A DNA stretch of 64,000 nucleotides. It comes from Dioscorea cayenensis subsp. rotundata (lineage: Eukaryota > Streptophyta > Magnoliopsida > Dioscoreales > Dioscoreaceae). A program made the position numbers and the translations under genes. This document shows positions 3,921-23,800 of this stretch, piece by piece. The notes beneath the pieces were generated by a model. The model did no database searches. It had not been told where the DNA came from and worked only from the letters and a program-made list of their open reading frames with translations. Position 1 is the stretch's first letter, and each line of letters starts with the position of its first letter. The DNA lies in contig NC_052479.1 in assembly GCF_009730915.1 (NCBI RefSeq), forward strand, positions 310,001 through 374,000. Reading direction: 5' to 3'.

Positions 3921-5744
3921 CTCCATAATATATCGGTCGAAAACCAAATCGTACTGAAACCAAATGAAATGAAGAACAAAAGCGAAGGCGACGAAGAAGA
4001 AGTAGAAGATGTAAAGAAACAAGCAGTCGAGAAAGGCAAACAAAAAGTGCACGAGTTGTATGCATAGAGGTTAGACTAGGCGTGATGTGATTGGGCGGTA
4101 TTTTTCCCTCCATCCCAAGGGCGAAAAGGAAATATATGTCATTGTCGCGAGGAAGACATATTATCATCGTTCGAATGAAAGTTCTCAACTCAACATGAGT
4201 CTACGTATAAGCGTCGAGCTTTTTATGTTTAAAGCGAGATACATATAGTGTTTAAAATAACGGTTAAGCTGTTTAACTAAAGTACATATCATGTAAATAA
4301 TATGTTATTGTTTAAATTGAATGCTTTTCATCTTTGACATCGCGTTGCTAGATGGGTACCTCTGGAGTCATTGTTTAAACATATTTACGTATTTTTCTTA
4401 AACACCGTTGTCGTTGTTTAAAGAGTAACTTGAGTATTGTTTAACTTTTTTTCTATTGTTTACAATGAGCGTTTTTGTTTCCACATTGTTTTTTACTAGG
4501 TCTCGTTTAAATTTCGAAGTTCACGATCAAATCTGATTGTTTCGTTTTATTTATAAAAGATTTACAACATTTACAACATTTACAAAGATTTACAACATTT
4601 ACAACATTTACAACGTCCAGCTCGGACTTTGGACACTCACGACTCGACCCTCGTATAACGAAACAAGTGTATGCATGACGTTCGAATGCTCACGACGGTT
4701 GCATAACAAGCGCATCAACTTGAACCCTGCAAAAAGCGTGCTAACATTAAAAAAGGTTAAACAACACACGTTCATGAAAAGCGACTATTAATCAATGTGT
4801 CGTGGTAGGACTTAAACGACGATCCCGATGAAGTTAAACACGAGCGTAGCTGTGTTATGCCGACGCGTCATTTTTCTTAAACGTTAACGAGAAAGTCTCG
4901 AGTGGTAAATGTCAACCCCGTCTTTAAAGGATGTTTCACGATCTCTCTCCTCTAGAGAATCCTCCGCAATCACGTGATACGTGAAAAACTTTCTTTTCTT
5001 ACCCAAGTCGAAATGCTTTCTTAATTGCTTTCCGTCATCCATCACTGGAGAATCCCTCTCGCGATTCGTGCGATTATGAGAGGATTTCGCCAGGGCTGAA
5101 AAAGATAGTTTAACTAGTTCGGTGATTCACGGCTAGTCGATTCTCAAGATAAGGAAGAAGGCTCACGAAACATCATTTTCAGATAGAGTGGTTGTCCATG
5201 GGAAGAGGAGGAAGAGGAGGAGGGAGGAGGAGGAGGATGATGAGGACGACGAGGAGTGGTTGTCCATGGGGAGGGTTCTTCCTGGTTATTTATGGTGTGA
5301 AGTCCACAGCAGGTCGACTCTTCGTGATCCGAGAAAAGTTAAAGCGACGCGATGGTCGACATCGATCGATGAGAACGAACGTGTGTTCGGAAATTTGATG
5401 TTACCGCTGCATAAGAATTAATCTGGTCATTAATTCTTACGTACGGGATACCATAACCTTGCCACCCGCCACGCTGCCACATGCCAACAATTCGGATCAA
5501 ACGAAAAAGATCACCGCTTTTACGCGAGACTTTGAGAATTTACACGCTTTATGAATAGTTATACATGTAAAAGATAATGTTAAAGCGGAGATGGGAAGTA
5601 TTAAACGGATATGACAATTATTAAACATATTAGTAAAATATTTAAACGGATAATAGCAAATAGTTAAACATTATTTAAAATATACTAAATAGATAACCAT
5701 AAAGCGAGAAGAACTTTTACTAAACGAAATGAACTCGTCAGTAA
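3921..5744. other. MULE interior: GTTTAAA-rich spacers and rearranged fragments
   Basis: No intact gene. 4200-4540 is another GTTTAAA/TTTAAAC-rich spacer. 4562-4615 is a run of ATTTACAAC units. The phrase AGCGCATCAACTTGAACCC near 4709 matches one near 1896, and GGGATACCATAACCTTGCCAC near 5447 matches the SWIM-finger region near 1685, so pieces of the transposase 3' half recur here. 5200-5270 is a GA-rich stretch bounded by two GTTGTCCATGGG repeats. Confidence 0.5.
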
Positions 5745-6510: not shown

Positions 6511-7417
6511 ATCATTTTCATCCGTTTAGAGTATGATATCAGTTTTTTTTTTTATTACAAATGATATATATTAGAAAGAATTTAAATTAAAAAATATATA
6601 TAAGGACTTAAACATAAAAATATTATATTAAAAACCATTGTAAATTTTTAAATAGAGTCATGAGAAAAAAATTTAATTTTAAAAAAATTATAAGGACTAA
6701 AAATGTAAAATATTATATAAAAAATCCATTGTAAAATTTAAATAGAGTTGTGAAAAAAAAATTAACTTAAAAGAATTTGTAAGGTTGTAAATGTAAAAAT
6801 TTCATATAAAAAAACTATTATAAAATTAAAAAGAAAAATTTAAATATAACCCATACTGTAAAAAGTACCATGCAATGACACTCTATCAGTATTTTTTCAG
6901 CATTTTTAATAATTAATTTAAAAAATACTTATTTTGATATATAATTAAAAAAAAAAAAGCAATATTTAAAAAAAATAGCCGAAAAAAGATGGAGACGGGT
7001 GAGTGAGATTCATAAGAAGGGCCAGACTGAATTTCAATTCATTAAATCTTTTTAAAAAAATATATTTTTTTAATAAATTAAAGGGGCGAAGTGATAATGT
7101 ATGGATAGAACCTAGCTTTTAAATAATAATATTTTGAAATTTTTGTTGTTTTTGAAAAATTAAAAACATCAGAATGATGTTTATCACTTCTACTGCATAT
7201 GTGGTTTTATACTTTTTTTTTTTTTAAGAAAAAAATAAAACTACTAAAGCTGCAGTAATTTATTTTTATTTTTATTTTCAAACCGTGATTTGTTTGATTG
7301 GAAAATGATAATTGAATCTAGACTATATAAATGTGGTGGGAGATTGGAATAATTTACTCACTCATAATAAAATAAATTATTATCTGAAAAATAGTTGACT
7401 TTGGTGATTATTATTAT
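6511..7417. other. AT-rich intergenic DNA
   Basis: Poly-A/T tracts and short diverged repeats (AAATTTAAATAGAGT... near 6640, 6725 and 6740). I see no gene. It ends in ATTAT directly before the LTR retrotransposon. Confidence 0.6.
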
Positions 7418-10400
7418 TGTAATACCCTGAACCTGTGGATAACTGTTGAAAAATATATTCAGGGTATTACTACGAGTTACGTAAGAATTTTCTACGAGAA
7501 TGTCTTGTTGAAACCCACGAGTGGACTGAATAAGAGACTTAAGTGTAAAAAGTTTTTTTAAAAAGATTTTTGGGTTAAAGAGTAATAGAAAAAGGATTGA
7601 TATGAAAATGCTTGTGAAAACTAAGGACTGAAAGGTAAGTTGAAGGGATCATTTGGAAATATTGTGTTATAATCCAAGGACCATTGGATAATTTGAAAGG
7701 ACCTTTTGAGAATATTATTTTTATAATCCAGGGACCATTTGTGAGTTTTTTCAGGGACTGGTTTGTAAGAAGTTAAGTTTTGAGGGACTAAAAAGTGAAT
7801 TTCGGCTGAAGAGTTAATTGAGAGAAAAATCTAGACTTTTGATGATTGTTCATCTTCTTCTCCACCATTTTGCTACAAGAACTCCGAGAGTTAAAAGAGA
7901 AAAAGATGAGAGAGAGATTTGGAGAGAAATTGGAAGAGATAAAAAGCTTGGTATTTGGAGAGAAGAATGGATGAAGTATTATTTGGTAAAGTATTTTGAT
8001 GATTTATTTGTTGGTATACTTGAATGTATGTGTGTGTATTTTTGGATTGAGAAATGTAATTTTTTTCTTGAGAAAGAAGAAGGATTTATGATGAAAAATG
8101 ATGAGTTATTGTTAATAAGAGTTGTTGCTCAATTTTTGGTTGGAAAAACACTTGTATTTGAGTTGGAATTTGCTTGAAATGGAGGTGAGTTTGCGTGATT
8201 TCTATCGTAGTATTACTTGTAGCACCGAGATTAGGGTTTGGTTTGATTAATTAAGTTGATAATTATGATGATTAGGAGGTTAATGATAATGGTTAGATTG
8301 AAATGGGTTGAGTTAGTCCAATTGATTTGATTAGATCAAACCAAGTTGGATTGAATTGATTGAGTTGAATTGATTTGGTTGAGTTGAGTTGATTTGGTTG
8401 AGTTGGGCTTGATCAAATCAAGTTGAGATGAGTTGGGTTTGGTTCAGTTGATTTTTGGGTTAGGGTTTTGGGATCGAACCAAGTTGGTTCAATGGATTTT
8501 GAATAAGAATTGAGTTGGTTCAAGCTGGTTCAGTGAAATTAAGTTTGGTTCGAGTCTGCAATTAAGGTTGGTTCGATTGATTCAGAGTGTTTAGCTTTGA
8601 CCGAGTTTGTTTTAAATACAACCCGAAAGGCAATTGGACTATGCAAGGTCGGGTTTTTAACCGATTGGAGTGAGTGGGGCCCGATAGAGAGTCTATTATT
8701 GTTTCTTGTATTTTCTTTTTGAGTTTAAATATGTTATTTATTTTTTTATTATATTATTCCATTAGGGTGTTGTTCGGTCTTGAGAGGGAGTTCCGGATCT
8801 AGGAAGGAACCCAAGGACACTCGAGTGAGTTAGTAGTGGCTATTATTTTTTTAATATTAATTATTATTATTATTTTGAAATAATTGTTTAATAACTAGTA
8901 TTTTTGGAAATAATTATTTAAGTATTTCATTTTATCATGTTTAATTTACGTATAAGGTTAAAAATATATGTATATTTACTTTGCAGTTGATGTTCCCCGA
9001 CAATCGTATTGATACATCGGTTTCAGTATAATTATACGTGATTTGTGAATAGTGAAAATACATGTATATGTGATTTAATTATTCAATTCATGTATTTATT
9101 TTTGATGGTTATATATGCTTTTGATTTGGAATGATTTGTGAAATCATGTGAGCGCTTTTTAAAATGTTTTTACCGACAATATTTGTGGAATTGGTTTTCA
9201 TTCCCTGGAATAGGAATGGTATCATGGATCCGGATTTTACTTGGTTTTTATGCATTGTTATACTTTTGACATCGGGCTTTTGTGGAAATGATGTTTATTT
9301 TCGTGATGTGAATGCTTGTCCCGGATAAGGATCCTATGATGTGATTTATCTGCATTGTTTTATTCTTTCGTATTTACATGTTGGTTTTGGATGGTGACGG
9401 CGGCTAAGGCCCGACTCATCGCGATGAGTGGGTCCCCACGGGCCGACCCTTTAGAGGTGGCGTGGTGGACTGAGTGTTGATTTGTCCGGATCGGTGGGAG
9501 CGTAGAGCCCTGATTGGATTATACATCGGGATCCTAGAGTCACCACATGGGACCCGATGGGCCAACGCTCGAGTGCGAAGACTTGGCGGCTCCCCAAACC
9601 TAGTCGCGACGCGCTAAGTGGGGAGAGTTTTTCCAGTCGTGGAATTGAGAATGGATTTTTTTATATTACTTGTTATTTTGGGTTTGTGATGAGGGCGAGC
9701 CCATTGTACGCTCTTAGGAGGCGATCTCTCAACAATTTGGATTTTCTTAGAAAATTGATTTGATATTGATTTGTGATGAATTTATGTTTTGTGATGAGGC
9801 TAGGGCCCACTGTCGCTCTTAGGAGGCGCGCTCTCACAACAATTTGGATTTTCTTAGAAAATTGATTTGATATTGATTTGTGATGAATTTATGTTTTTGT
9901 GATGAGTGAGGCGGCTTTCACTGCCGCTTCTTAGGGAGGGCGTCTCTCACAACAATTTGGATTTTCTTAGAAAATTGATTTGATATTGATTTGTGATGAA
10001 TTTATGTTTCAAAAGTTCTTTAAAAATGTATTTTTGCTAGAATTCCGTATTTTTGGAAAAGTTGGAAAAATTATTTGAGAGGTTGGTATTTATATATTTT
10101 TATATATCATCGTATTTGAATATTTGAAATTATTAAGCCACTACCGACCAACTCGAATGTCTGTCAGAATCGCAGGGAGAGCAAGACCCTAGATCGCCTG
10201 CTCAAGTTTAGAGCTAGTCGAGGGTTAAGTCCAAGACTGCAGATGGGTCCCATACTTTTCTTTATATTTGTTGGTATCGTGATCTTAGTAGGCATTTGTA
10301 CTCCACAAATTTGAGTTATTATATTTGTTAGTATTTATGTATTTGAATCCTGCAGTTGGTGTAAAGTTATAAATCGTAATTTAGTAACTCCGATTTGGTT

Positions 10401-10488
10401 TCGAGAGGTGTCGGGGTTTCCAGCTAAAAAGGAATTTTTTTAACCGATGGGTGCCACATTTACCCTCAGTAGAAGGGTGGGTGTGACA
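7418..10488 (+). repeat. 5' LTR
   Basis: 3071 bp, TG...CA ends. Contains a stretch of TTGAGTTGATTTGG-type repeats near 8290-8560 and a three-unit tandem array at 9688-10008. An open stretch near 7818-8177 has no recognisable domain and I do not treat it as a gene. Confidence 0.85.
9688..10008 (+). repeat. Three-unit tandem array in the 5' LTR (two units in the 3' LTR)
   Basis: Units of about 107 bp start GATGAG and contain CTCTTAGGAGGCG..CTCTCA followed by ACAATTTGGATTTTC and GAAAATTGATTTGATATTG. The 5' LTR has three units. The 3' LTR has two (13259-13468), which accounts for most of the 120 bp length difference between the LTRs. Confidence 0.85.
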
Positions 10489-10990
10489 TCTTTTGGTATC
10501 GTAGTCGAGGTTGAGATATCCCCTCGGTTGGTAGAGATCACGGGTTGTGATCCGAGCCTAAGTTTAGAAGTCAGTGTCTAGACTTAGAGGGTTAGTAGTG
10601 ATTAGCATGAAAGTTAAGGGCCCAGAGAAGTATTTAGAGTCTCCAATCGGGTTAAAACCTAAGTTGCATATTGGGATTGAGGACTGGATAGTAGGTTTTT
10701 GACATTTGAGACAGAGTCGAGTAGTGTATCGCGATCGAATCATGTGTTGAGATATTTGTCGGAATTGGTTTTATTCAAAATGAGTTAACTTAAAAGATGC
10801 CAAAGAAAGGTGTTTGGCATGCTTTTTTATCGATCGATACATAGTGATTTGTAGTGTGATTATTTACTATCGAAAGCGATTTGTAGCAAGAGAAACAGTG
10901 GTCTTGGACCCGGTAAGTGAAATTCGATGATATCGATTGATGTATGCTAAGGAAATTTCGAGGACGAAATTTTTTTTAAGGAGGAAGGAT
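10489..10990 (+). other. Interior of the LTR element (PBS-like and polypurine tract, no genes)
   Basis: TGGTATCG at 10494 resembles the initiator-Met tRNA primer site of plant retroelements (TGGTATCAGAGC) with differences. The last 15-20 bp before the 3' LTR are purine-rich (AAGGAGGAAGGA). Between them there is no long open frame and no recognisable gag, protease, reverse transcriptase or integrase motif. Confidence 0.75.
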
Positions 10991-13941
10991 TGTAATACCC
11001 TGAACCTGTGGATAACTGTTGAAAAATATATTCAGGGTATTACTACGGTTCGAGAAGAATTTTTCTACGAGTAATCTTGTTGAGAAACCCCAAGTGGACG
11101 TAATAAGGACTTAAGTGTAAAAAGTTTTTAAAAAGATTTTTGGGTTAAAGAGTAATAGAAAAAGGATTGATATGAAATGCTTGTGAAAAACTAAGGACTG
11201 AAAGGTAAGTTGAAGGGATCATTTGGAAATATTGTGTTATAATCCAAGGACCATTGGATAATTTGAAAGGACCTTTTGAGAATATTATTTTTATAATCCA
11301 GGGACCATTTGTGAGTTTTTTTCAGGGACTGGTTTGTAAGAAGTTAAGTTTTGAGGGACTAAAAAGTGAATTTCGGCTGAAGAGTTAATTGAGAAAAAAA
11401 TCTAGACTTTTTGATGATTGTTCATCTTCTTCTCCACCATTTTCTACAGAGAACCCGAGAGTTAAAGAGAAAAGAGTGAGAGATTTGGAGAGAAATTGGA
11501 AGAGATAAAAGCTTTGGTGATTTGGAGAGAAAGAATGGATGAAGTATTATTTGGTAAAAGTATTTTTGATGATTTATTTGTTGGTATACTTGAATGTATG
11601 TGTGTGTATTTTGGATTGAGAAATGTAATTTTTTTCTTGAGAAAGAAGAAGGATTTATGATGAAAAAAATGATGAGTTATTGTTAATAAGAGTTGTTCTC
11701 AATTTTGGTTGGAAAAAACACTTGTATTTGAGTTGGAATTTGCTTGAAATGGAGGTGAGTTTGCGGATTTCATTGTAGTATTCATCGTAGCACCGAGATT
11801 AGGGTTTGGTTTGATTAATTAAGTTGATAATTATGATGATTAGGAGGTTAATGATAATGGTTAGATTGAAATGGGTTGAGTTAGTCCAATTGATTTGATT
11901 AGATCAAACCAAGTTGGATTGAATTGATTGAGTTGAATTGATTTGGTTGAGTTGAGTTGATTTGGTTGAGTTGGGCTTGATCAAATCAAGTTGAGATGGG
12001 TTGGGTTTGGTTCGAGTTGATTTTTGGGTTAAGGGTTTTGGACTCGAACCAAGTTGGTTCAATGGATTTTGAATAAGAATTGAGTTGGTTCAAGTCTGGT
12101 TCAGTGAAATTAAGTTTGGTTCGAGTCGATTAAGGTTGGTTCGGATTGATTCAGCAGTGTTTAGCTCTGATCGAGTTTGTTTAAATACAACCCGAAAAGG
12201 CAATTGGATCTATGCAAGGTCGGGGTTTTAACCGATTGGAGTGAAGTGGGCCCAATAGAGAGTCTATTATTGTTTCTTGTATTTTTCTTTTTGAGTTTAA
12301 ATATGTTATTTATTTTTTTATTATATTATTCATTAGGTGTTGTTCGGTCTTGAGAGGGAGTTCCGGATCTAGGAAGGAACCCAAGGACACCAGAGTGAGT
12401 TGGTAGTGGCTATTATTTTTTTAATATTAATTATTATTATTATTTTGAAATAATTGTTTAATAACTAGTATTTTTGGAAATAATTATTTAAGTATTTCAT
12501 TTTATCATGTTTAATTTTAGCGTATAAGGTTAAAAATATATGTATATTTACTTGCCGTTGATGTTCCCCGACAATCGTATTGATACATCGGGTTTCAGTA
12601 TAATTATACGTGATTTGTGAATAGTGAAAAATACATGTATATGTGATTTAATTATTCAATTCATGTATTTATTTTTTTGATGGTTATATATGCTTTTGAT
12701 TTGGAATGATTTGTGAAATCATGTGAGCGTTTTAAAATGTTTTACCGACAATATTTGTGGAATTGGTTTTCATTCCTGGAATAGGAATGGTATCATGGAT
12801 CCTGGATTTTACTCTGGTTTTATGCATTGTTATACTTTTGACATCGGGCTTTGTGGAAATGATGTTTATTTTCGTGATGTGAATGCTTGTCCCGGATAAG
12901 GATCCCATGATGTGATTTATACTGATTGTTTTATTCGTCGTATTTACATGTTGGTTTTGGATGGTGACGCGGGCTAAGGCCCCGACTCATCGCAGAGTGG
13001 GTCCCCACGGGCCGACCCTTTAGAGGTGGCGTGGTGGACTCGAGTGTTGATTTGTCCGGATCGGTGGGAGCGTAGAGCCCTGATTGGATTATACATCGGG
13101 ATCCTAGAGTCACCACATGGGACCCGACGGGCCAACGCTCGAGTGCGAAGACCTTGGCGGCTCCCAACCCTAGTCGCGACGGCGGCTAAGTGGGGAGAGT
13201 TTTTCCAGTCGTGGAATTGAGAATGGATTTTTTATATTACTTGTTATTTTTGGGTTGTGATGAGGGGCGAAGCCCATTGTCGCTCTTAGGAGGCGTCTCT
13301 CACAACAATTTGGATTTTCTTAGAAAATTGATTTGATATTGATTTGTGATGAATTTATGTTTTGTGATGAGGGCGAAGCCCATTGTCGCTCTTAGGAGGC
13401 GTCTCTCACAACAATTTGGATTTTCTTAGAAAATTGATTTGATATTGATTTGTGATGAATTTATGTTTCAAAAGTTCTTTTAAAAAATGTATTTTTGCTA
13501 GAATTCCGGTATTTTTGGAAAAGTTGGAAAAATTATTTGAGAGGTTGGTATTTATATATTTTTATATATACTCGTATTTGAATATTTGAAATTATTAAGC
13601 CACTACCGACCAACCCGAATGTGTCAGAATCGCAGGGAGCAAGACCCTAGATCGCCTGCTCAAGTTTAGAGCTAGTCGTGGGTTAAGTCCAAGACCGCAG
13701 TGGGTCCCATACTTTTTCTTTATATTTGTTGGTATCGTGATCTTAGTAGCGGTTGTACTCCACAAATTTGAGTTATTATATTTGTTGTATTTATGTATTT
13801 GAATCCTGCAGTTGGTGTAAAGTTATAAATTGTAATTTGTAACTCTGATTTGGTTTCTGAGAGGTGTCAGGTTTCCAGTTAAAAAGGAATTTTTAACTGA
13901 TGGGTGCCACATTTACCTCGGTAGAAGGGGTGGGTGTGACA
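10991..13941 (+). repeat. 3' LTR
   Basis: 2951 bp, co-linear with the 5' LTR from TGTAATACCC to GTGTGACA and near-identical over most of its length. Confidence 0.85.
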
Positions 13942-18432: not shown

Positions 18433-18867
18433 ATCAACTTACAATGCATTAATGGATTACTATTTATTATTATTATTATTTTTTATTTTTTATCAGAGGC
18501 AAGTCAAAATCTCATCCGTGAGAATGTATGGTTGTGTATTTAGAATGTAATGAAGGAATTTATTATAAATTCCTGATATTATTTATTATTATTATTATTA
18601 TTATTATGTTTATAAAATTAACAAAGCTTCCATCAATTTATATAATTTTTATTGTATAAATAAGGGAAAATTACTTTAAAGTCCATGCACTGTTTGAAAC
18701 TTCCACTGCAGTCCCTCCGACATTTTCATTTCCTATTAGGTCCCTTCTTTTTCAAACCCAATTCAGCTTCATCCCTGCTGTTAGTTACGTCAGTTATTTA
18801 GTGGTGAAATGTCACAAATGCCTTTGTACCATGTGAGAGGTTCAAAAGTCAAAATAAATAAGTAATA
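18433..18867. other. Intergenic DNA with ATT tracts and a transposon-end-like segment
   Basis: ATT runs near 18465-18480 and 18580-18605. From about 18663, GGGAAAATTACTTTAAAGTCC followed by CACTGCAGTCCCTCC and TTAGGTCCCTT resembles the ends of plant MULE/MITE families. No inverted partner was found to the right. Confidence 0.35.
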
Positions 18868-19115
18868 GAGCAATGCTATTAGTCCCGATGGATGTTCCCG
18901 ATTCATCTCCCGAACAACGTGGCGACCCATGTGACTACATGAATTCCTTTTTTTTTTCTTTCCTCGTCAGCTTAACTCTCTCATTTTAATGTAAAAAAAA
19001 TTAAAAAATAAAAAGAAGAGAGAAACATCTGGTCAAAGTGACCGGGCCCTACCTCATCTTATTCCCCTTCTCCATCTCCCATCTCCCATCTCCCGGCCAT
19101 CTCCTGGCCATCTCC
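18868..19115 (+). repeat. Left terminal inverted repeat of the Pack-type element
   Basis: About 245 bp, matching the reverse complement of 20180-20425 through the shared landmarks GCGACCCA, GACTACATGAATTCC, GTGACCGGGCCCTAC and CATCTCCC units. The arms differ by scattered changes, so the element is not brand new. Confidence 0.85.
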
Positions 19116-19318
19116 CATCTTTCTGTGGTCTGTATTCAGTTCCAGTTCATCCACAGTGAAAAACAACCATACACATGGTAAAGAGAGGTAATTTAACACA
19201 AAAAGGAAGATATATTTCTAATAGCATTGATTTCTCAATGATACAAAACTCATCCATTGGTATTAGAGATGAAGAACAAAAGCACAATATTTTCTTCATA
19301 ATATTCATCTGACAAGGT

Positions 19319-20190
19319 TTACAGGTAACAAATTGTACAATAGGGAGAGCAAAATGACAATGTGGGATGACAGTGAGCCATCTCCTCTATTTTATCAAAA
19401 TTTGCTAAAAACCTTATCCTCAGAACCTTTAAGGACTCTTGTTGGAGAGAACATTGGGCTGATGGGAGTTGCTTCTGCAACATCATCTGATGCAGGAACA
19501 AGCATTTGTTTCAAGTTGTAGAACCTAAAGAAGGGAAGAACATGGACATTCAAACTATAACACATTGACTTATGCTCTTCATAGTTCACTAGGAGGAACA
19601 GAACATCTGGATTCAACTCTGCAAACTGGCAAATCAGCAAACAAGAAGTATATATCATTCCAAACATAATTCAGCAAACAAAAAATATATTTTTTTTTAA
19701 ATTCAAATGTAATGGAACTACCTTGGGATGGAGAGCTTTGCAACCTCCACAACCAAGGGAGTAGAAATCAACAATGACAAGCTTGTTATCAGCGTTCAAC
19801 AAAGAATCAACAAGGTCTTGTGCTGATTGGACCTCCTTCATGTTAGGTTGCAGTCCCTTTTCCCACCATTTCACAGACTTTCAAATGCGAAGGCTCATCT
19901 GCAAATCAACATTTTTTTCATCAAATCAGGTAAAACAAAAAATCCAAAATTCTTATCAATCCGATTAAAGCAACACTGATGAACTTCACAATAAAGGAAA
20001 TCCCTGAAAAAAAAAATGGGGATTTGGAAACCTCTACATACCTTCGGATGGAGACCATCGATGGCGTTCCTCTCCACAGGTCGCCTTCGACTCCAATCTC
20101 CTAAAACCAAACCACCATTACCGATGGAGGAGGAAAAAGACGAAGAAAACCTCAAAGATACAAAACTCGGAGACAAACCACAGAAAAATG
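19319..20190 (-). pseudogene. Captured ACHT-type (atypical Cys-His-rich) thioredoxin fragment
   Basis: ACHT proteins are chloroplast thioredoxins with a CGGC-type active site. Read right to left, an N-terminal exon-like piece (FSSSIGNGGLVLGDWSRRRP, ending HPK at a GTATGT donor near 20041) is followed by a piece at about 19722-19880 reading KWWEKGLQPNMKEVQSAQDL, VIVDFYSLGCGGCKALHPK with a GTAGTT donor. A third piece at about 19537-19640 reads FAELNPDVLFLLVNYEEHKS and SLNVHVLPFFRFY. The family active site GCGGC is intact. The family's continuation after FFRFY (a GA..RVCSF-type segment) is absent. Instead there is unrelated sequence ending SPTRVLKGSEDKV. The acceptor before the third piece lacks AG at the expected place, and a stop precedes KWWEK. 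I read it as captured exons plus introns, not a working gene. Confidence 0.75.
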
Positions 20191-20425
20191 GGAGATGGCC
20201 GGGAGATGGCTGGGAGATGGAGAAGGGGGATGAGATGAGGTAGGGCCCGGTCACTTTGACTAGATGTTTCTCTCTTCCTTTTATTTATTTTTTTTTTTTT
20301 ACATTAAAATGAGAGAGTTAAGCGGACGAGGAAAGAGAGGAAAAGGAATTCATGTAGTCACGTGGGTCGCCACGTCGTTCGGGAGATGAATTCAGGAACA
20401 TCCATCTGGACGAATAGCATTGCTC

Positions 20426-20858
20426 AAAAACATTTTTGAGGGATTTAAACGCAAAAATAAGGCGTGACACTCCCGCATCCCTTTCCCTCCTTTTTCTCTA
20501 ATGACAACTTGAAAAACAGAAAACAATAGAAACTGTTTTCCTTTGAGAACAAGAATCTGTTTTCCTTTCTTTCTTTCTTTCTTTCTTTCTCTGTCTTCGC
20601 TTATTCTCTCTTCGCGTTTGCGTATATGTTCTCCATTTCGCTTTTCCAGATGCTTCCTCGCTGCTCCGCCGCCGCTCATCGCTCGATTCCCCGCCCTCGT
20701 GCTCCTCCTCCTCCTTTATCCCTAGATCCCTTTTCCATCCTTCCCCTTTCGATCCTTATCCCAGCTCTTTCCCTCTCTGGCAATCAGATCAAACCTCCTT
20801 TTTCCTTCGATTCTTTGTTATTGTTGTTGTTGTTGTTGTTGCCACGATCGCCATTTCT
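20426..20858 (+). promoter_or_regulatory. Promoter and 5' UTR region of the DAR2-like gene
   Basis: Follows the Pack-type element directly. Contains a CTTT-repeat tract (20570-20590), long CT-rich sequence and a TTG/TTGTTG run (20817-20840) just before the start codon. The pyrimidine tracts are typical of plant 5' UTRs. No clear TATA box was picked out. Confidence 0.4.
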
Positions 20859-23800
20859 ATGGCTTCTTCCGATGATGGCCACCTCTCCTCTCATCCTTGC
20901 ATTTATGGTAATCTTTTCCTCTTTCTCTTTCTCTTTATCCACTCTTGATTTGCTTTTTCTATGAATTTTGGGTTGTGGAATTGTGAGGAGTCCTAGTTTG
21001 TGAGTTTTTATTTGGTTTTTTATTTATTTATTTTTTGGAATAGGATGTAGAATTGAAGTTGGTTTTGAAATTTATTGCTTGGTTTCAGTGGTTATTGTGG
21101 GTTTTGATTGGTTTACTGTGTTGCATTTATGGTGATTTTCGATATTTGTGGTTGGTGAGATTGTGTGGAGTGTTTCTTGTGAAATTATATGTGGATTTTT
21201 GGAATAGAACTTAGAATTGTAGTTAGTTTTGAAATTTATTGTGTGATTTCAGCGGTTAGTGCGAGGTTTGATTGTTTAGTTGTGTTATCGCCCTTGCATT
21301 TATGGTGATCTTCGATCTTCCTTTCTTTCTCATATCTTGGTCCAGGATTTTGGTTTTCAATTTTGTTTTGTTTTGTTTTTTTTATGAATTTTGTGTATTG
21401 GGTATTGTGATGAGTGGTTGTTTGTGAAAATATATGAGAATTTTGTAATACGATGTGGAATTAAATTTAGTTTTGAATTTTATTATTTGATTTCAGTTGT
21501 TTGAATGAGGTTTGATTGTTTTACTCTGTTATCAACTGGGGATGTGAATGAAAGTAGGCCACATGCCACCTTCACGTAATATGAGAAGATCATGGTTTAT
21601 GAAATGGATTAGCAAGTTGTTCGGAGGAGGGTCTTCTCGTGGAGCTTCGAATGGGCGGCGTCTTAGGATTAGCGGAGAAGAGAACACGTTTTGGCACGAG
21701 CCTGCTAGATCTATGGTAATAATACATTGTTTCCTTATCTAAATGAAATTATTGTGACTTTTTCATTCTATATAATCAATACTTATTCTTGATAGCATGA
21801 GATATAGACAGACAAATCCCAATACAATTGTCTGAAGCCTAGAACAGAGTTTGAAACTATCTTTACTAGCATCTAAAATGTTAAACATTTGGAATGTGTT
21901 TGTTATGGCCCATGTTTTTCCCCCACCCTAGTGTGCAAGAATGGAAGAATAATACATAGCATTATGCCAATGCGGGAGGTTGAGTGTTCGAATCCCACCT
22001 CAAGTGTGGTGAATAGTGTGGCTTGCCCACTTTTTTAAAAACATATATAGCATCATCATTTGCCTCTTTAATATATCAAATTCTGCTAGATATTAACATG
22101 ATAAATGTCATTGTTAAGATTTTCATCCAAAAAATTAGTTTTTTTTTTTAAATTTTACAACATATAAGATGTAGTAACTATAATAGAATTAGAAATTCCT
22201 CAAAAATTGCATTATCATTTTCCTCACTGTGTCACATGAGATGATTCTGTTTTAGTTACTGACAGGATGATCAATCCAAAGCTGAGAAAGAGGAGTTAGA
22301 TCGGGCTATAGCACTTTCCCTTGCAGAAAATGGCAAGAGAAGAAATGGTATGCTTGGGATATTGAATATCTTAATAAGTGAAAATAGTTGCAGTCAAAAT
22401 GCTCTCTGAAAGTGCAACACAATGCATTAGCATCATTATAGGAACTCACAACATCTTGATGGAATTAAATTTTTATTTTTTGGATTTTTTGATGTAAAGG
22501 ACAATGTGATAATGATGAAGATCTTGATAGAGCACTTCGGGAAAGCTTGAGCATGTCGGCATCCCATCCATATAATCCTGTACAGTGTGTACCAAGAGAT
22601 TCTAGGTATGAAATTTAAAACTTTTGTTAGTTGCGGGCGAGTATCTAAAATCTAGGAAGTAATCCTAAAGCTCCTATTAGCAGGGTTTGTGGAGGGTGTA
22701 ATAAAGAAATAGGCTATGGGCATTATTTGAGCTGCATGGGGGCCTTTTGGCACCCTCAATGCTTTCGTTGTCATGCCTGTGGTCTGCCAATCTGCGAGAA
22801 AGAGGTACATTTTGTGTGTTTCTCATAGAAGTTATTCTGCTTCACTTTATAAATTAAGAATTTTTTTTCATTTGAGGTTTATTGGATGGAATGCTTTTCC
22901 ATTGAAGAAATTCTAATCTCATGCCTATTTTTCCAGTTTTCTTTGTCAGGGAGTCATCCATACCACAAATCGTGTCATAAAGAGTTGCATCACCCTAAAT
23001 GTGATGTCTGCCATCAATTTGTAAGAACCTCTTTCCTGGGCGTGTGCATATATATATTTCCAAAAAACATGCCTTTACCTTCAAAGTTCCTTCTTCTAAG
23101 TATGTCTCTGTGCATTAGATGATAGCCATTATTGCTTCTGCCATATAAAAAAGGCTGCTTTTGATACTTGATCGCATCATGTAGCAACCTATGATACTAT
23201 TTTGATGAACATACAGGACATGAAAGAATTTGTGCACGCTCATGTTTTCCAGGCAAACCTTCTCAGACCATGTGTAGTTGCTTCTTGCTAAAGCGCATGA
23301 ATACTTTTTATTTTCTTTTATAGACTAGCTAGCTGTTTGTATCTTTCCCCATAAGAAAAGGTTTCTCTGGACAGACTTTAATCTTGAAATTCTTTTCGTA
23401 GATCCCAACAAATAGGTCCGGGTTGATTGAGTACAGGGCGCATCCATTCTGGAGACAAAATTATTGCCCTTCACATGAACATGATAATACTCCTCGGTGC
23501 TGTAGTTGTGAGCGGTTGGAGGTATGCACTCTGTTGTTGATTATGTATTCGTGCAGCCATTTCTGAGGCTGTCTTGTTGAGCATTCATTTTCTTATGCAC
23601 ATAGTTATGAGTTCCTTGTCACACCTTTTGGTTTTCAAATGAACGTAGACGAGGAGTGTAAAATACATCTCTTTGGGAGATGGGCGTAGTCTTTGCCTGG
23701 AATGTTTGGATTCTGCTATCATGGATACAGGAGAATGCCAACCTCTTTACCATTCTATTAGAGATTATTATGAAGGAATGTATATGAAGATAGACCAGCA

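Follow-up and report, generated by a model that had tools for sequence, protein, structure and literature searches.

The window (the whole 64-kb stretch of DNA analysed here, C9:310001-374000) contains a compact element in which two long inverted arms enclose, on the minus strand, exons and introns of an ACHT-type chloroplast thioredoxin gene (Table 1). The next gene to the right, of the DA1 type of growth genes, has a DA1-like domain (PF12315, E 3.7e-37 in a downstream frame), and its presumed ATG, which is a reading of the sequence, stands at 20859, 434 bp from the right end of the element. The original prediction had placed the element about 430 bp upstream of DAR2; the distance holds, and the domain search places the gene in the DA1 family, whereas no search gave the name DAR2. 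The element could, as had been proposed, affect the promoter of this gene. For a paralogue of the gene on C15, the alignment starts only at window position 20715, downstream of the element, and the promoter does not align, so that the paralogue gave no readable empty site. Elsewhere in the window, a 3-kb direct repeat (7416-10488 and 10989-13941, 92-95% identical, about 3.5 kb apart and differing by many small indels) perhaps represents long LTRs or a tandem duplication, and there are local direct duplications of approximately 190-260 bp (16980-17236/17307-17533, 767-1021/1064-1321, and 39722-39915/40313-40495).

Table 1. Features of the element (positions are those of the window).
Feature	Position	Strand	Basis or detail
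Whole element, very probably a Pack-MULE, 1558 bp	18868-20425	cargo on -	full-length copies with the same ends
Left terminal inverted repeat, 266 bp	18868-19133	+	terminus GAGCAATGCTATT
Sequence beyond the ACHT stop, presumed 3'UTR, to the left-arm junction	19120-19394	-	92% to parent C7, q253-653
ACHT exon 4, last part, tail NLKQMLVPASDDVAEATP...SEDKVFSKF and stop	19395-19516	-	parent tail NKKQMLVPAPDDVAEATPICPMFSPTRVLKGSEDKVLSKL
Deletion junction, 4-bp overlap of parental blocks	19517-19520	-	blocks q253-653 and q650-1306
ACHT exon 3, 5' part, ends at FFRFY	19517-19634	-	alignment to parent C7
ACHT intron 2	19626-19721	-	parental acceptor CAG reads CTG; ancestral intron end 19635
ACHT exon 2, 177 bp, GCGGC active site, TGA at codon 6	19722-19898	-	alignment and parent model
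ACHT intron 1, 143 bp, GT..AG	19899-20041	-	alignment to parent C7
ACHT exon 1, 3' part without ATG, ends at donor GTATGT	20042-20172	-	alignment to parent C7 and parent model
Right terminal inverted repeat, 253 bp	20173-20425	-	terminus GAGCAATGCTATT, as on left

Judging from its sequence, the element is, with a probability of roughly 97%, a Pack-MULE carrying a truncated ACHT-type chloroplast thioredoxin gene; Pack-MULEs are a well-documented and ordinary kind of element. Inverted repeats of about 245 bp had been predicted at 18868..20425, and this is confirmed: the two arms, 266 and 253 bp long, match each other in inverted orientation at 87% over 268 alignment columns (E 4.5e-91). Both have an 11-bp tandem repeat close to the inner end (CCATCTCCCGG, at 19086-19116 in the left arm), the final 14 bp of the left arm (19120-19133) also match the parent gene, and the right arm contains a AATAAATAAA motif as well as a CACGTG (at 20359; the 64-kb window has 10 such sites). 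The ends at 18868 and 20425 are exact, in that two other copies end identically and are bordered there by perfect 9-bp duplications. At the window copy itself, no target-site duplication was found for lengths of 3-12 bp and border shifts of up to 3 bp (best, 3 of 4 bases). The left flank (18665-18867) resembles what we take to be the style of another transposon's end, which may bear on the missing duplication. The absence of a duplication is not unusual: in tomato, 10604 of 28041 MULEs (38%) had one (PMC3310237, in excerpt). When the arms were compared with the rest of the 64-kb window (E <= 0.01), matches were confined to their A/T-rich tract, and a looser terminus search of the window, with 7 matches against 5.5 expected, gave no further arms. 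No Rfam match in the 64-kb window reached gathering scores, no relatives of the element were found among plasmids, viral contigs, or a genome contig collection, and a literature search with the terminus sequence returned no title pointing to a plant transposon.

A pair of facing arms could also act as a hairpin source, with read-through RNA giving rise to small RNAs that would silence the element and might also act on the neighbouring promoter or on the parental ACHT gene. Such small RNAs are possible: the complete minus strand is predicted to fold at -683.8 kcal/mol, against -295 to -450 kcal/mol for eight random window stretches that were not composition-matched, and 24-nt RNAs have been linked to the arms and interiors of rice genic MULEs (PMC4858842, in excerpt). 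The arms are, however, only 87% alike, and we regard this role as rather unlikely.

A Pfam scan of six translated frames inside the element, the longer ones, found no transposase; thioredoxin-type families appeared in two frames and nothing in the other four. The exon 2 frame matches PF00085 at E 3.8e-7, above the curated cut-off, and the exon 3 frame only at E 0.065, below it, while PDB 6lyw (TrxL2.1) matches the two frames at E 1.5e-13 and 2.6e-10. Exon 2 contains GCGGC, a motif given for an ACHT4 as its active site (PMC12561512, in excerpt). The exon-like pieces with splice donors and a GCGGC site that had been described from the sequence, read leftward, are borne out, on the minus strand and with GT..AG introns. 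The TGA in exon 2 is in frame and corresponds to GGG in the parent; beyond the lost intron 2 acceptor, the next AG lies 9 bp downstream, and exon 3 starts at 19634 (parental) or 19625.

The cargo is not a complete thioredoxin gene: the start is lost, exon 2 has its TGA, approximately 270 bp are missing, and no open frame holds a complete transit peptide and Trx fold. We take the cargo to be a pseudogene fragment, because its copies have the deletion, the TGA change, and a missing splice acceptor, and from its sequence it would be very unlikely to encode a working thioredoxin. It is likewise decidedly improbable that the copy has become a functional gene whose transcript, started in the right arm, either encodes a truncated ACHT protein of 116 aa or serves as a regulatory RNA. 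A 116-aa frame with an internal ATG is kept in the window copy and in the copy on C26 by way of the downstream alternative acceptor, which appears usable; the AATAAATAAA motif stands in the right arm; and promoters in the arms drive Pack-MULE interiors (PMC3310237, in excerpt). Against this, a transcript starting at the element edge would meet nine ATGs before that of the frame (four if it began at the inner border of the arm), and further upstream the natural frame is interrupted by the TGA. The cargo also lacks the beginning of the transit peptide and the portion of the Trx domain that would follow FFRFY, and the copy on C18 is frameshifted.

The parent of the cargo is an intact ACHT-type thioredoxin gene on C7, which reads on the minus strand as four exons and 277 aa in a splice model whose sites were set by visual inspection of the alignment; in the same model, the paralogue at C18:5.13 Mb gives 280 aa. 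All of the cargo is accounted for at the C7 locus by two collinear blocks (q253-653 at 92% and q650-1306 at 91%) that lie 269 bp apart in the parent and overlap by 4 bp in the element. In parental terms, as read from a five-sequence alignment, the cargo runs from the last part of exon 1 through intron 1, exon 2, and intron 2 into the first part of exon 3, then resumes with the last part of exon 4 and continues into downstream sequence. Absent from the element are approximately 270 bp of the parent (the rest of exon 3, intron 3, and most of exon 4), and the junction of this internal deletion sits at a shared TACA, a 4-bp microhomology. The 9 kb examined around the C7 parent showed no arms. The proposal of gene capture by a transposon is therefore supported, both by a parent with the same introns and by elements with related arms and different cargo.

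The sequence after FFRFY had been read as leaving the thioredoxin family for unrelated sequence, with two sources possibly fused. The first part stands, in that the reading does leave the thioredoxin domain at this point; the second does not, as the parent continues there with NKKQMLVPAPDDVAEATP... and the element with NLKQMLVPASDDVAEATP..., which is the C7 parent's own C-terminus. A fusion of two genes, with ACHT up to FFRFY and an unrelated gene thereafter, has next to nothing left to recommend it: the Trx profile does end near FFRFY, and another element with related arms does carry pieces of two genes (PLD-alpha and cyclophilin), but the tail corresponds to the C-terminal end of the C7 gene itself and to what lies downstream of it, the two blocks are collinear at that one locus, and the alignment to C7, which spans the entire cargo, refutes the fusion and replaces it with an internal deletion. 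The identity of the tail is settled by the genome search. Compared with a sequence taken as the C-terminus of Arabidopsis ACHT4, its score was not significant (reached by 692 and 597 of 2000 shuffles at two gap costs); the tail alone matched nothing in the PDB, and within the exon 3 frame it had no Pfam or NCBIfam match. ACHT peptide words searched in the literature gave no match. Weaker matches to the ACHT gene (67-74%) at C12:18.151 Mb (L016) and C18:20.258 Mb are perhaps more distant ACHT genes.

The genome search covered a 584-Mb assembly, and the copy counts obtained from it are lower bounds. At least two further full-length copies of the element exist, at C26:1291776-1293321 (95%) and C18:23355705-23357241 (90%), with perfect 9-bp target-site duplications (TTATATATG and TTTCTTATA, respectively) exactly at the predicted ends. 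The arms are not unique to the window, a matter that the original prediction had referred to a search of this kind, which returned these full-length copies together with further arms. Past transposition is indicated by the finding of three copies, each in unrelated flanks: over 2 kb, the flanks differ in all three pairwise comparisons, which rules out over that distance that the sibling copies lie inside one segmental duplication. Apart from the missing target-site duplication at the window copy, nothing favours an origin of the arms by chance or by local inverted duplication with no transposon involved, and we dismiss this reading, which is refuted by the dispersed full-length copies with their perfect 9-bp duplications and unrelated flanks and by the many further arms elsewhere in the genome.

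Assignment of the element to the Mutator-like superfamily draws on both its arms and its duplications. MULEs have long arms (100-500 bp) and duplications of 9-11 bp (PMC3310237, in excerpt). The arms of the element (266 and 253 bp) fall within this range, and a duplication of the expected length is present at the C26 and C18 copies (9 of 9 bases) and absent at the window copy. CACTA, hAT, PIF-Harbinger, and Tc1-mariner elements have their own termini and duplications of 2, 3, or 8 bp; none of the four fits the terminus GAGCAATG and the 9-bp duplications of the siblings.

Twenty further arm-bearing loci (L018-L037) were examined, nine of which have two facing arms. Eight of the nine could be scored for duplications, which were perfect over 9 bp in two, matched at 8 of 9 bases in three, and were not found in three; the ninth, L024, has an unplaced left end and stands outside this count. 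Three of the eight, on C4, C18, and C1188, have termini and arms similar to those of the window element but, unlike it, are 6.0-6.2 kb long and contain transposase coding sequence, with FAR1 and MULE (PF10551) domains in all three and a SWIM domain in those on C4 and C1188 (for the C18 element, the scan covered the first frame only). The 6053-bp C4 element, which has a perfect 9-bp duplication (8 of 9 bases at C18, none seen at C1188), contains a 748-aa frame with matches to MULE (E 1.1e-36), FAR1 (E 1.8e-16), and SWIM (E 2.9e-7). Compared with the window element, the arms of these transposase-bearing elements are mostly 67-76% alike, with short stretches of up to 88%, and for this reason we consider the ~6-kb elements plausible candidate helpers, whose mobilisation of the window element is not certain. 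Two side observations concern the wider family. L027 (C18:4.70 Mb, 996 bp) matches interior parts of the 6.2-kb L023 (the C1188 element), at 88% and 98%, a pattern that fits its derivation by internal deletion. L018, L019, and L020 (C1673, C1:23.11 Mb, and C1:9.589 Mb) are single arms with a common outside flank (GTAACAATGTTCATATTTTTATAAG), and the arm has therefore multiplied there as part of something larger.

The order of events can be approached from the sequences of the three copies. A tree built from five rows (the three element copies, the C7 gene, and the C18 paralogue; midpoint root, with the other inner branch open) separates the copies from both genes with a support of 100/100 and gives them the shorter path to C7. 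K2P distances of the copies are 0.064, 0.057, and 0.100 to C7 and 0.116, 0.107, and 0.144 to the C18 paralogue, and the distance between C7 and that paralogue is 0.099. Because the path in the tree is shorter and each copy is closer to C7, we infer that the capture postdates the C7/C18 duplication and that its source lay on the C7 side. The internal deletion and the base change giving TGA are common to all three copies and are therefore older than their spread; in the C18 copy, a one-base insertion moves the TGA out of frame. The AG of the intron 2 acceptor is likewise gone in all three, but it reads CTG, CGG, and TGG, a different sequence in each, and so may have been lost more than once.

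At the breakpoints, the likeness of L018-L020 to the element ends just after CATCTT, beyond which the left arm continues with CTGTGGTCTGT, which is parental. The right arm has a nearly identical 11 bp (CTGTGGTTTGT) that is absent from the parent on that side and that would have been transferred, once capture had taken place, by short-range copying between the two arm junctions; microhomology arising by chance could also account for it. The core contains two pairs of 16-bp direct repeats (19719/20039 and 19234/20151) against a shuffle mean of 0.05 (one pair in 5 of 100 shuffles, two in none). We dropped a reading of these pairs as template-switch scars because the parent already has looser versions of both.

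The family has carried other cargo. An element on C5 (L025:1092-2748, C5:13.8746 Mb; 1657 bp) has arms of the related type, is flanked by a perfect 9-bp duplication (TAGCATTAC), and holds a piece of a phospholipase D alpha gene (PDB 6kz8, E 2.2e-94; no Pfam match of this frame at 0.001) and, on the opposite strand, a cyclophilin piece (PF00160, E 3.2e-18). The cargo of the window element was absent from all seven of the two-armed relatives compared (of nine). Given the different cargo in L025, the family therefore took up genes more than once.

A different ACHT piece recurs at four other loci, L013, L014, L015, and L017 (C3:14.721, C21:1.290, C1:22.475, and C3:13.605 Mb), where it has nearly equal ends and corresponds to 4929-5285 of the parent locus L009 (exon 3, intron 3, and the start of exon 4). 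No inverted repeats were found around this piece in the 8 kb examined, and L013 and L017 are alike across nearly all of the 8 kb. At three of the four loci, the repeat held in common with L014 starts CACT[A/G]CTACATAACT, with no matching far end; its sequence suggests a CACTA-like element with a separate ACHT capture. That the C7 ACHT gene is a repeated target of capture, by the Pack-MULE and by a CACTA-like family, with RNA from the copies, including the window hairpin, acting back on parental ACHT or on the adjoining DA1-family promoter, is a speculative scheme to which we give little credence.

Returning to the Pack-MULE, the events that best explain the locus begin with a non-autonomous Mutator-like element that took up, as DNA, a single stretch of the C7 ACHT gene, which starts within exon 1, includes the introns, and runs past the stop codon; the capture step may have been template switching at microhomology. 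About 270 bp of the middle of the cargo would then have been lost, in what is the probable order of capture and deletion, and the element subsequently transposed, leaving three copies with the deletion and the TGA change in common. The transposase probably came in trans from the ~6-kb FAR1-MULE-SWIM elements, whose arms are related, and transcription would run leftward from the right arm.

The closest counterparts among known systems are the tomato PM-ZIBP Pack-MULEs, which, as excerpted, have long arms 87-95% alike, a length of 0.9-1.4 kb, a gene fragment, several copies, and 9-10 bp duplications (PMC3310237). The window element also has long arms, a gene fragment, and several copies; it differs in its cargo, which is an internally deleted ACHT thioredoxin gene, in the missing duplication of the window copy, and in its arms, which are single, while those of 13 of the 14 PM-ZIBP copies are tandem (PMC3310237, in excerpt). 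Animal Pack-TIRs with a gap-filling origin have microhomology at their breakpoints, as does the window element, which in contrast to them is multicopy, has transposed, and has its parent on another contig (PMC8277862, in excerpt). Pack-CACTA and other Pack-TYPE elements are likewise non-autonomous DNA transposons that capture coding DNA, but the window element has long arms and 9-bp duplications and no CACTA ends (PMC8903248, in excerpt).

The locus offers a gene capture that is cleanly resolved in one genome, with a parent, three copies, two intact duplications, and transposase-bearing relatives, and the same genome also gives another element with related arms that holds pieces of two other genes. 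The element would gain in importance if its presence changed how the adjacent DA1-family gene is expressed. More generally, an apparent two-gene chimera may be an internal deletion within one parent, which is a caution for readings of Pack-MULEs from a single copy.
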